Below, piece by piece: positions 28,003 through 32,160 of a stretch of 64,000 nt of DNA. This DNA is from Bdellovibrionota bacterium (GTDB taxonomy: Bacteria > Bdellovibrionota > Bdellovibrionia > Bdellovibrionales > JAMPXM01). The notes beneath the pieces are model-generated. The model had not been told where the DNA came from and did not search any database. It saw nothing but the letters and a program-made list of their open reading frames with translations. The translations under genes and the position numbers were made by a program. How positions within the stretch are numbered: the stretch's first letter is position 1; each line of letters opens with the position of its first letter. Location: NCBI GenBank assembly GCA_963170185.1, contig CAUJGS010000003.1:1-64000 (forward strand). Direction: 5' to 3'.

Positions 28003-28575
28003 ATGAAAATTCGTCTCGCAGAAATCCCAGAAGATGGTCGTCAGTTTACATTCACCCGTGAGTCGGGAGAGCTGAACACGGCTCTGAAGGACCTTCTGCC
28101 GGCTGTGCCTTACAAGGTCGATTTGACGATTCGTCCTCTTGGCAATGCCTACGAGATGGAGGGCAAGGTTGTGACGTCGCTAAGTGAGCTCTGCTCGCTT
28201 TGTGGATGGGATCTCAATCTCCCGCTGAATCGCACCTTCCGTGAGGTTTTGGTGGAAGAGGAAGAGACGGATCGTGAAACGCATCACGTTCACGGCAACC
28301 AATCGGTCGACTTCCTCTCCGAGGGCTCGTCGTCGACTTACAAAGACGGCGTGTTTGACGCTGGGGAGTTCGTCCACGAACTCGTCGCGATTTCGGAGCC
28401 GATGTATCCTTCTTGCGGCGATCCCGACTGTGAGCATTTAGAAGAGGCCAACGCCAAGCGGGCCGAGCTTGAGGCTGAGTTCAACAAAGCCGATGTCGAT
28501 GAAAAGACCAATCCGTTTGCCAAGCTCGCTGGCCTTAAAGTCGAAGACACAAAATCCACGAACAAAAAACACTAG
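28003..28575 (+). CDS. yceD: YceD/DUF177 family protein (23S rRNA accumulation)
   Basis: A 190-residue DUF177 protein. The conserved core with paired cysteines is present: LSELCSLCGWDLNLPLNRTF, a CxxC metal-binding site, and a downstream Cys pair PSCGDPDCEH. The acidic middle (VEEEETDRE) and segment VFDAGEFVHELVAISEPMYP are typical. In E. coli and plants the family is needed for 23S rRNA accumulation or processing. Nearly all bacteria place rpmF (ribosomal protein L32) directly after yceD; here it is absent. The C-terminal tail (KLAGLKVEDTKSTNKKH) is longer than usual. Confidence 0.88.
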   Translation: MKIRLAEIPEDGRQFTFTRESGELNTALKDLLPAVPYKVDLTIRPLGNAYEMEGKVVTSLSELCSLCGWDLNLPLNRTFREVLVEEEETDRETHHVHGNQSVDFLSEGSSSTYKDGVFDAGEFVHELVAISEPMYPSCGDPDCEHLEEANAKRAELEAEFNKADVDEKTNPFAKLAGLKVEDTKSTNKKH

Positions 28576-28677
28576 GCCGCAGCGACGCCCCAAATCTTTT
28601 CGCGCCCCTGCGCGAAAAGCAGCACGCTGGCGGGCCCTCCTGTGGAGGGTGCCTGCGCGGAGGCCGCAGCGACGCCC
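28574..28677. repeat. Convergent intergenic region with a 17-bp direct repeat and two hairpins
   Basis: AGGCCGCAGCGACGCCC occurs at 28574-28590 and again at 28661-28677. Between the copies are two hairpins: CTTTTCGCG-CCCCTG-CGCGAAAAG (28596-28619) and CCCTCC-TGT-GGAGGG. A short tandem GACGCCCTAA(T) follows. The region separates the convergent ends of yceD and the GspG-like gene; the first hairpin may terminate in both directions. Confidence 0.65.
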
Positions 28678-28687
28678 TAATGACGCC

Positions 28688-29089
28688 CTAAAAGGTTAGC
28701 GAGTCGAGCGGGTAGACGCCTTGAATGTCGTCTTGGTTGTTATAGACCCCGTCGGGACCGGCGCTTGTCACCACCAGCTGGCGCTTTTGTTTGTCATAAC
28801 GAAGCGTGTAGGCCTTGCCCCATTGATCCAAAGAGGTGTCGCGTTGGATATTGTTTCGCGTGCGCATGTTCTTTCTTAGGTACTCGGCAAAACCCTCGGG
28901 TTTCGGCTGCGAGCCGTCGAGCGTGTCGAGGTAAACCATCTTAGAGATGTCGGAGATTTCGTGTTGGGTGGCCATCACTTTGGTGGCTTCCATGACCTTT
29001 GCGATCTGCGCTTTTAAGTTCGGACTTGAAGCGGCGGCGCCGCCGGCGACGGTGATCATCGGAATTATCTTGGCGATCGCGTCGATCAT
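28688..29089 (-). CDS. GspG/pseudopilin-like small membrane protein
   Basis: A 133-residue protein with one N-terminal hydrophobic segment (IAKIIPMITVAGGAAA) and a C-terminal part that matches the globular domain of type II secretion pseudopilin GspG: DQWGKAYTLRYD followed by TSAGPDGVYNNQDDI, the calcium-binding loop pattern. No prepilin-peptidase cleavage motif (G-F-T-L-x-E) is present, so it is probably a derived, non-pilus relative. It overlaps the upstream cNMP-domain gene by 4 bp and is probably its partner. Function unknown. Confidence 0.6.
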   Translation of the reverse strand: MIDAIAKIIPMITVAGGAAASSPNLKAQIAKVMEATKVMATQHEISDISKMVYLDTLDGSQPKPEGFAEYLRKNMRTRNNIQRDTSLDQWGKAYTLRYDKQKRQLVVTSAGPDGVYNNQDDIQGVYPLDSLTF

Positions 29090-31197
29090 GACTGGCTCCC
29101 TGCAAGACGAGTTTCGGAGACGGTTTCAAGGTAAAGAGCGATGGAGGCGTGTCGCGACAAGACGCTCCAAAACTGATTGGCGGAGAGTTTGAGAAGGCGA
29201 CATGGCTCTTTGGTCATGACGCTCGCAGTGCGAGGCGTATTCATGATGAGCGCCATTTCGCCAAAGAAGTCGCCTTGACCAAGCTCCGCCAAGATTCGGC
29301 CGCTGGCGATGACGTCGACTTTGCCTCGAATCAAGAGATAAAAATCTTTGTCCGTGCGACCTTGCTCGACGACCTGTCGCCCTGGTGGAACTGTGAGAAC
29401 ATGGCCTTCGTTAAAAAAGAGACTCACGACCTCTTTCGGAGCCTCGCGAAAGAGTTCGCTAGAGGCGATGTATTGACCCAGCATCAGGCGATCCAAAAAG
29501 GCATCGGCGTCGGCGCGAAGCGTTTGGTGTTGCAGGAGGTCCTCGACAACTTTTCTGGGAATCGCGAGCACGCGGCACTCTGTCAGAGTCACGACGTCGG
29601 CCGATCTCGGGGTATTGGCAAGCAGAGTGTTTTCACCAAACACGGTCGGAGCACTGAGGCGGGTGACTTCTTGCACGGCACCGGTGGGTTGGCGCTTTTG
29701 AACAAGCACTTCGCCCTCGAGGAGAACAAAAAGCTCATCGCTAAAGGTCTCTTGCACGATCACGTGGGTTTTCGGTCCGACTTTGCGCAGGCTTGACTGC
29801 TGAACAAGAAAGAGAAGTGTATCGCGGCCGACACCTTGAAACAGAGGAATGCCGAGAAGAAAGTCGACCAATGCATCGGCGTTCGGAATTTTTTCGGCCT
29901 TGGTGCGAGTTTTGGATTTTTGCACCAGCCACTTGGTCTTCAGTGGATGAAGGACATTGCTGCCGATCATGCGTATCAAGTCGTAGACAAGGTAAAGGAA
30001 GCTCATCAGAAGTGAAATGCCGAGAATCACGCATGCCAACCACTCGGCGAAAACGCCGGAGGTCCAAGCCTCCGTGAAACTTGCGAGAATTTGCACGTCG
30101 TTTTTTGTGATCAACATAAGCAGCAGGTTGTAGGCAAACATTGTCCAAGCAATCGCAAGCGTCGAATACGCTGTGTAGATTCCGGAGTCTGCCATCTTGT
30201 CTTTGTTTGTCAGCGAAAGCAGGCCGCGGTTTTTCAAGTAAGGCAAAAGCTCAATCGCCGAGCGTTGGTTATAGACGATGTTAAAGAAGCTTGAGAGATC
30301 GGACTTGCGAAACGGGTTGAGGTCGACCATCGCGAGGATGACGGAAACCCAGAAGAGGTCATCGACAAGCGACCAGCCCGGTGCCCAAGCCATTGCCCCA
30401 GCCGTGGCGGCGGCAAAGACAAAAAAGTACGAGGACGCGACGGCGACAAACGCCAGCGAGCCGATCGAGCGACCTCCGGCCATGTAGATCTTGTCGTCAT
30501 GACTTCGAAGTGCCAACGAGAAGAGATTCAGCTCCAAACGCACAGCGCTGCGTGTGCCGGTGAGGAGAATCGCAAGCAGAGTTTTAAGAAGCGTTTTGGC
30601 CGTGATCATAAGACTTGCGACGACGAAGAAGAAGATGAGGCCCTTGACGTAGCTTCCGCCAAGTCTCAGGAAGTCCGGCGGAACATCGATGAGATCAGCG
30701 AAAAAAACGCTCGCGAGAACTCCCAGTGTGACGAAGATCGAGCCGATGGCCGCGACCAAAAACGCGATCAGATTCGGGTTTGCGATATTTTTTGCTTTCC
30801 AAAGTTCGAAACCGAAGATGGGGCGCGTGAGCCAAATGGGTTCGCGTTCGAACATCTCGGCACGTGAGGCCGAATCCTCTGTCGCAAGGCTCTCGGCGCC
30901 TTCGAGGCAGCCTTGGGTTTGCAGCTTTTGAAGCGTGCTAAAGAACGACTTAAAAGGAACTCGCCCTTGCTGTCTGGCTAGAGTTTCTAGAATCTCTGGA
31001 ATCGTGCGGCTTCCATCAAGCAGTGGCAGCATTTCGGCCGCCGAATGTGGAAGCGACACTTGTCGCGATCCGTCAGCAAGCTCGAAGAGAAGTGGGGCTT
31101 CGGCTCGGGCGGATGTCATGGGGGCGAAGGCTTGCCCGTTTTTTAATCTGGGACGCGCGTGCTGGAGAGAGGCAGCGGTATTTGTCATATTGCTCAT
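29086..31197 (-). CDS. Membrane protein: PqqD-like domain, degenerate M50 core, two cyclic-nucleotide-binding domains
   Basis: A 703-residue protein. Residues about 35-100 resemble PqqD-type peptide-binding domains. About 140-400 is a multi-helix block that lines up with membrane M50 peptide metalloproteases: the site of HELGH reads KTLLK, the VSDAW-like segment reads SHDDKIYM, and NPLLRFDGYY reads NPFRKSDLSS, so metal ligands are lost except perhaps one Asp. Two cNMP-binding domains follow (about 445-550 and 575-690), each with a phosphate-binding cassette (FGENTLLANTPRSADVV; FGEMALIMNTPRTASVM). This looks like a pseudo-protease sensor. The gene is coupled to the GspG-like gene. Confidence 0.7.
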   Translation of the reverse strand: MSNMTNTAASLQHARPRLKNGQAFAPMTSARAEAPLLFELADGSRQVSLPHSAAEMLPLLDGSRTIPEILETLARQQGRVPFKSFFSTLQKLQTQGCLEGAESLATEDSASRAEMFEREPIWLTRPIFGFELWKAKNIANPNLIAFLVAAIGSIFVTLGVLASVFFADLIDVPPDFLRLGGSYVKGLIFFFVVASLMITAKTLLKTLLAILLTGTRSAVRLELNLFSLALRSHDDKIYMAGGRSIGSLAFVAVASSYFFVFAAATAGAMAWAPGWSLVDDLFWVSVILAMVDLNPFRKSDLSSFFNIVYNQRSAIELLPYLKNRGLLSLTNKDKMADSGIYTAYSTLAIAWTMFAYNLLLMLITKNDVQILASFTEAWTSGVFAEWLACVILGISLLMSFLYLVYDLIRMIGSNVLHPLKTKWLVQKSKTRTKAEKIPNADALVDFLLGIPLFQGVGRDTLLFLVQQSSLRKVGPKTHVIVQETFSDELFVLLEGEVLVQKRQPTGAVQEVTRLSAPTVFGENTLLANTPRSADVVTLTECRVLAIPRKVVEDLLQHQTLRADADAFLDRLMLGQYIASSELFREAPKEVVSLFFNEGHVLTVPPGRQVVEQGRTDKDFYLLIRGKVDVIASGRILAELGQGDFFGEMALIMNTPRTASVMTKEPCRLLKLSANQFWSVLSRHASIALYLETVSETRLAGSQS

Positions 31198-31332: not shown

Positions 31333-32160
31333 ATGTCGAATTTCTTCTCCGCAATCAAAGAAACGTTGGGCCGTGTTTTTGGCGCAGCTTCGATGCCCGC
31401 CTCTGGAAATCAGAGTGGAGCCGACGCTGGACTTAAGGCTGGGGGACTGGCGCATGGTGCTGAGCCTCGTCGTTACAAGCGGGCAATTCTTTTGGTGGGA
31501 ACTCAGACGACGCTTCATTCGCAGCTGGCCTCGGCGATGGCCAGCTATCGAGGTAAGACGTTTCCGGTTGTCGACCTAAGTCACACAGGGCTTGCGATGC
31601 TTCGCGAAGAGATTGCGGATCACGAGCTTCCAGATGTGACGAAGTCCGAACCGATGGCACTCACGCTAGGCTTGCTTCCGGCCTTCCATGTTCAGGTGAA
31701 GCTTGTTCGCCACTCTGAGCGGATCATGGCCTTTGAGTTCGCAAGTGTGCCGACGGAAGGTCGCATGGCGATCGACAAGTTTCTTGATCCGAAGATGATC
31801 GGCCTTAACATGCGTCCGGTGGATCGGGCGTTTTTCTCGCCTGGCGAGACTTTTTCGATCTGGTTTTGTGGGCCGCGCGACACGAATTTTTTCCTTTGGC
31901 TAAGCGGCTCACGGGTTGAGCGCGCCATCATTCAGCTTGGCGAAGAGACTTTTGCGCTATTTCCTTCGAGTGTTTCCGGTGTGCGTTTCGTTCGCCAGAC
32001 GAGCGATGGCGGCACGGCCGAGACGGATGCGGCGGTTTTGCGTAAATCGGTGCATTTTGCTCTCGATGTCGCACTTCAGATTCATGATGGCGGCGAAGCG
32101 GTTAAGGGGCTTATCAAGCTCCTGACGGAAGCGGCCGACACGCTCCCTCAAGAAAACTGA
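31333..32160 (+). CDS. PilZ-like domain protein (candidate c-di-GMP effector)
   Basis: About 275 residues from ATG 31333, chosen because a promoter ends 6 nt upstream and longer frames (to 31159) have no site. Residues about 45-150 resemble a PilZ domain: RxxxR in RRYKR, and about 30 residues later DxSxxG in DLSHTG, both c-di-GMP contact motifs, then a beta strand with HVQVKLVRHSERIMAFEFA. The C-terminal half (about 160-270) is unknown, with FSPGETFSIWFCGPRDTNFF. Likely a cytoplasmic c-di-GMP-binding adaptor. The divergent neighbour has cNMP-binding domains. Confidence 0.62.
   Translation: MSNFFSAIKETLGRVFGAASMPASGNQSGADAGLKAGGLAHGAEPRRYKRAILLVGTQTTLHSQLASAMASYRGKTFPVVDLSHTGLAMLREEIADHELPDVTKSEPMALTLGLLPAFHVQVKLVRHSERIMAFEFASVPTEGRMAIDKFLDPKMIGLNMRPVDRAFFSPGETFSIWFCGPRDTNFFLWLSGSRVERAIIQLGEETFALFPSSVSGVRFVRQTSDGGTAETDAAVLRKSVHFALDVALQIHDGGEAVKGLIKLLTEAADTLPQEN

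Follow-up and report, generated by a model that had tools for sequence, protein, structure and literature searches.

Within the 64,000-nucleotide stretch of Bdellovibrionota DNA analyzed here (the window), two overlapping genes raise the question of whether a membrane protein laid out like an M50-type intramembrane peptidase, with altered residues at the zinc site and cNMP-binding domains at its C terminus, is descended from such peptidases, and what it could do together with a small GspG-like protein. The safest claim from the sequences is that it appears to be an ancient, conserved, non-catalytic membrane protein of M50 origin, with intact cNMP domains, encoded in a tight operon with the GspG-like partner.

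The two genes

The larger gene encodes a 703-aa protein that consists of a PqqD-like N-terminal domain, a six-TM pseudoprotease core, and tandem cNMP-binding domains (Table 1). Its open reading frame shares four bases, ATGA (29086-29089), with that of the partner. In the list of open reading frames, both lie where the preliminary description had placed them, including the overlap. The named relatives of this genome are Bdellovibrionaceae and Bacteriovoracaceae MAGs. The short gap that separates yceD from the partner gene (window positions 28575-28692) contains two copies of GGCCGCAGCGACGCCC.

Table 1. Features of the locus, with positions in the window
Feature	Residues or length	Position	Strand	Evidence
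Pseudo-M50/cNBD protein	703 aa	29086..31197	-	ORF list, Pfam, hhalign to catalytic PqqD-M50, AlphaFold
PqqD/RRE-like winged-helix N-domain	about 12-118	30844..31164	-	Sub-threshold Pfam PqqD, alignment to catalytic relatives
Membrane core, probably M50-derived	118-432	29902..30846	-	AlphaFold; hhalign without N-domain
KTLLK in the place of HExxH	201-205	30583..30597	-	Alignment with HELGH
NPFRKSD in the place of NPLLxxDG	294-300	30298..30318	-	Alignment; third-ligand Asp kept
Phosphate-binding cassette, cNMP domain 1, VFGENTLLANTPRSADV	519-535	29593..29643	-	Family alignment
Phosphate-binding cassette, cNMP domain 2, FFGEMALIMNTPRTASV	644-660	29218..29268	-	Family alignment
GspG-like partner	133 aa	28688..29089	-	Pfam T2SSG, PDB match, family alignment
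Divergent PilZ-like gene adjoining the pair		31333..32160	+	Homologues beside the pair in near relatives (G001-G004 and G012)

Origin of the membrane core

Pfam M50 was unmatched in the 20 family members scanned, the profile of the pseudoprotease family found no match among PDB sequences, and tblastn searches of plasmids with the core gave no matches. The family was compared with 18 catalytic PqqD-M50 proteins, encoded in the same phylum (L127 and L129-L138) or on plasmids (L142-L148, including MpaP of daptide clusters). All but one of these (17/18) match Pfam Peptidase_M50, and their common profile matches MjS2P (3b4r) and SpoIVFB (8vjl). In hhalign, the window family was aligned to this set over 331 columns with a probability of 97.7% and an E value of 1.7e-12, in a register that places KTLLK on HELGH, NPFRKSD on NPLLTFD, and Trp351 on the Trp of the catalytic proteins. 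After removal of the N-domain, the probability was 90.8%, versus at most 2.2% for reversed and shuffled targets; a repeat with 36 sequences, also without the N-domain, gave 87.8% versus at most 4.9% for the controls, which comprised reversed, column-shuffled, and block-shuffled versions. Single subfamilies produced weaker M50 scores, some of them near background, so the homology depends on the pooled profile.

The AlphaFold model of the core (pLDDT 88.3, pTM 0.85) was built from an alignment without any catalytic sequence. It has a long helix bearing KTLLK, then a β-hairpin, and after this a series of shorter helices up to the NP motif; in the model, this is the order of elements expected of M50. 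A Foldseek search of the PDB with the core model returned nothing significant (SpoIVFB 8vjl had an E value of 2.8 and a probability of 0.16), a negative result that is hard to weigh. Matches of the full-length model were dominated by the cNMP domains, and the viral library gave no useful match. Given that Foldseek found no significant PDB match, the homology rests on sequence profiles, which suggest that the core is a remote relative of M50. The proposal of an M50-derived core with a destroyed HExxH motif is supported by the significant profile similarity to catalytic PqqD-M50 proteins and the low scores of shuffled controls.

The N-domain resembles PqqD, as had been suggested, but its Pfam PqqD score of 16.5 bits does not reach the curated cut-off of 23.4. 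A relationship to PqqD is indicated solely through the catalytic relatives: the N-domain aligns with their PqqD domain in profile comparison, and the profile of the latter matches the RRE protein TbiB1 in the PDB.

Loss of the HExxH zinc motif

The window protein has lost both His residues of HExxH as well as its Glu, and the Asp of the third ligand (D300) is present. At the aligned position, HExxH is absent from all 36 aligned members; L026 contains an HExxH string at another place. The first His position is occupied by Lys or Arg in 34 of the 36 members and the second by Lys, Gln, or Arg in 32, position 300 is Asp or Glu in 34, and Pro295 and Trp351 are invariant. The loss of the catalytic motif is well supported. 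Residual zinc-protease activity is considered unlikely because both His and Glu are absent in every aligned member. The preliminary description, which cited KTLLK as evidence of changed zinc ligands, was correct with respect to the His, His, and Glu of HExxH but not to the retained D300. The strings VSDAW and NPLLRFDGYY that it quoted do not occur in the protein; both represent M50 consensus, and the corresponding places hold RSHDDKIYMAGGR and NPFRKSDLSS.

The same genome encodes a divergent 685-aa relative (L002, G000:C36:24591-28247) that contains hydrophobic stretches as well as cNMP domains and has no HExxH.

cNMP-binding domains

The C-terminal part of the 703-aa protein matches the Pfam cNMP_binding domain in two stretches (E value, 1.1e-38), and its PDB matches are PKG/PKA regulatory subunits and SthK. 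In the cassette of domain 1, Gly-Glu is found in all 34 rows with letters at this place and Arg in 33 of 36 rows; in that of domain 2, FGE is present in 36/36 rows and Arg in 35/36, with one gap. The earlier statement that two intact cNMP domains are located at the C terminus agrees with the Pfam match and with the conservation of Glu and Arg in both cassettes. We infer that the two domains are putative sensors of cAMP or cGMP. Predatory members of Bdellovibrionota rely on nucleotide signaling, and four class III cyclase domains are encoded in the same genome.

The GspG-like partner

The partner combines a hydrophobic N terminus with a GspG C-domain that carries the SxGPD..DD pattern. It passes the Pfam T2SSG cut-off (23.0 versus 21 bits), and T2SSG is matched, with E values up to 1, by 14 of the 16 members of its family. 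In the PDB, it is matched best by GspG/PulG-type pseudopilins, over SAGPDGVYNNQDDI, the SxGPD..DD stretch. There is no prepilin-peptidase site in the N terminus of the partner, MIDAIAKIIPMITVAGG, or in the N termini of the 16 members as read from their alignment, in which Lys7, Pro10, and the GspG-like Asp/Ser/Gly set are among the invariant residues. The protein is thus, as first described, pseudopilin-like and devoid of a prepilin site. A separate GspG with a higher score (93.6 bits) is encoded elsewhere in the genome, which means that the partner is not just the major pseudopilin of T2SS. In eight Bacteriovoracaceae partners (L065, L066, L068, L073, L074, L076, L079, and L081), the C-terminal tail consists of GYDRDGFDRNG-like repeats.

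A search for the two-gene pair in relatives had been recommended, and it revealed a conserved pair. The partner profile has strong matches (E value below 1e-10) in 26 of 369 genomes, and in all of these except G226 (25/26) the partner directly adjoins the pseudo-M50/cNBD gene. The pairs mostly keep the identical four-base overlap, and the gene surroundings vary. The pairing of the two genes is well supported.

Distribution and gene neighborhoods

The core model is matched, in some cases only partly, in 55 of the 369 genomes, and long homologues with open frames of about 565 to 744 aa are found across Bdellovibrionota. Over the N-domain and core, identity is 44 to 63% for near relatives and 17 to 24% for distant ones. 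A tree of 56 proteins places the 36 pseudoprotease members on one side of a branch with support of 99/97 and the 18 catalytic PqqD-M50 proteins on that of another (support, 100/100). A single ancient loss of catalysis would fit this topology, which is no proof because the branches are long. Repeated occurrence of the core, the altered motifs, and the pairing throughout Bdellovibrionota argues for more than chance. In family f9, proteins of about 370 to 420 aa (L031-L038 except L036) have an N-terminal domain and tandem cNMP domains and no membrane core.

Two homologues of the divergent gene that adjoins the pair match PilZ just under the cut-off, and hhalign against the PilZ neighbors of another family gave an E value of 1.5e-4 and a probability of 51; its PilZ identity is weak. 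PilZ-like genes adjoin the pseudo-M50 gene in two families. In the large clade f4, they lie immediately upstream, and the partner is mostly absent (L064, grouped in f4, has it), which means that the partner is not needed everywhere. The f4 loci scanned have a gene for a secreted S8 (subtilase) or M14 peptidase downstream of the pseudo-M50 gene. The order PilZ-like genes, pseudo-M50 gene, secreted S8/M14 peptidase gene was seen in L183-L185 and in the f4 loci among L017-L028.

Proposed role and alternatives

The likely role of the protein would be that of a non-catalytic membrane scaffold for its partner, controlled by cAMP or cGMP. For the ligand, gating, output, salt bridge, cleft-partner contact, and topology, we infer the following arrangement. 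The ancestor would have been a PqqD-M50 intramembrane peptidase whose zinc site was replaced by a conserved Lys-Lys pair and Asp/Glu, residues that probably form a salt bridge keeping the cleft folded without metal. The two cytoplasmic domains would sense cAMP or cGMP and make the six-helix core change its shape or its oligomeric state, and the old substrate cleft of this core may grip or free the hydrophobic N terminus of the co-translated partner, with the pilin-like C-domain of the latter presumably exposed to the periplasm. The cleft-partner step is modeled on the BofA-SpoIVFB precedent. The output is likely to be the regulation of a process at the envelope or surface, such as secretion, adhesion, or pilus-like assembly. 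We give an even chance to this reading, in which a non-catalytic switch evolved from PqqD-M50 peptidases acts on the partner under cNMP control. A broader version is more tentative: pseudo-site-2-proteases gated by cNMP would occur phylum-wide, with a lysine pair in place of zinc, cNMP controlling the grip of the dead cleft on an uncleaved partner, and PilZ bringing in c-di-GMP in some families.

Alternatively, the partner could be built into a pseudopilus-type structure, with the pseudoprotease positioning it as an assembly or recruitment factor of a secretion or pilus machine and cNMP control being secondary. The retained GspG C-domain and SxGPD..DD pattern would fit such a role, as would a Variovorax plasmid on which a catalytic PqqD-M50 gene directly adjoins gspG, gspK, and a T2SS set. 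However, the partner does not have the prepilin-peptidase site of ordinary pseudopilins, the genome has its better-scoring GspG elsewhere, and no T2SS genes were recognized beside the pair in loci read by eye, which makes this role rather unlikely. That the protein is a receptor or carrier of a ribosomal peptide, bound by the PqqD/RRE-like domain and held uncut by the pseudo-M50 core under cNMP control, is suggested by the alignment of the N-domain with its PqqD/RRE counterpart in RiPP-type M50 proteins, MpaP among them; but neither around the window nor in the loci that were read was a precursor peptide or modification enzyme recognized, and we regard this as improbable.

Slightly less probable still is an unrelated six-helix membrane domain whose resemblance to M50 stems from composition and short motifs. 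It would account for the absence of significant Foldseek matches to solved M50 structures and of Pfam M50 matches in the members scanned, but not for a profile score far above those of all three kinds of controls or for HELGH/KTLLK, NPxxxxD, and the common Trp falling in register. The protein could also be a Pycsar-type anti-phage effector, combining cNMP and membrane domains, a reading for which the match of its cNMP domain to PycTIR and TIR effectors in PADLOC speaks. The match is limited to that domain, with no match to a TIR or PycTM effector domain, no cyclase was recognized among the neighbors scanned, and both the wide distribution of the family in the phylum and its pairing with the GspG-like gene speak against this role. 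With a cNMP-only match and no adjacent cyclase, this reading was rejected as having only a very slight chance of being correct.

Comparison with known systems

The catalytic PqqD-M50 proteins (MpaP of daptide clusters and PqqD-M50-HlyD) have in common with the window family the PqqD/RRE-like N-domain, the M50 layout, the sites of HExxH and NPxxxxD in the same order and register, and the Trp. They differ in the intact HExxH, which is lost in every member of the window family, and many of them carry an HlyD-like domain where the latter has two cNMP domains. In Bdellovibrionota, L137/L138 and L127 combine PqqD, the M50 core, and cNMP in one protein, as the window protein does; in contrast to the window family, they retain HELGH or HEMAH, the cNMP domain of L127 is N-terminal, and no GspG-like neighbor was seen in their short flanks. 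L137 and L138 (open frames of about 1030 aa), with HELGH and a C-terminal cNMP domain, are possibly cNMP-regulated active intramembrane proteases. On the Variovorax plasmid (L149, CP063167.1, positions 1-22000), the catalytic gene lies between TolC/HlyD-type genes, and the locus also has a 48.7-kb tandem-95 repeat gene and gspG, gspK, gspD, gspE, and gspF; it may be a cluster for secretion of a giant adhesin.

GspG, the major pseudopilin of T2SS, has the C-terminal domain and the SxGPD..DD motif in common with the partner, which differs from it in the absent prepilin site, the hydrophobic start with its invariant Lys7 and Pro10, and the operon with the pseudo-M50 gene. Like the window pair, the SpoIVFB-BofA-SpoIVFA system comprises an M50 core with a soluble regulatory domain at its C terminus (CBS in SpoIVFB) and a small partner, and a helix of BofA fills the M50 cleft of SpoIVFB (PMC9042235). 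However, SpoIVFB is an active protease with CBS instead of cNMP domains, and its partner is unrelated to GspG.

The preliminary judgment that such a protein appears undescribed is consistent with the searches, which covered open-access literature: no description of such a bacterial protein was found, nor anything relevant on cNMP domains combined with M50 or S2P. Given this scope, it is not certain that none exists. The Bdellovibrio cNMP protein Bd2879, a CASP16 target, was set aside as a CRP-like putative transcription factor of different layout (PMC12750041). Bd1971, a cAMP-sensing EAL c-di-GMP phosphodiesterase of Bdellovibrio, is an example from the same phylum of a cNMP domain regulating another domain, but it is not an M50-type membrane protein (PMC6717892). 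The closest precedent is EGY3, a chloroplast S2P pseudoprotease described as the only pseudoenzyme of the S2P family and, in that account, only from plants (PMC9355673). In contrast to the window pair, neither cNMP domains nor a pilin-like partner have been reported for it. As a conserved family in bacteria that has intact second-messenger sensors and an operon partner, the window family would provide a tractable system for studying the role of an inactive intramembrane-protease fold; it would also give Bdellovibrionota a cNMP output embedded in the membrane.
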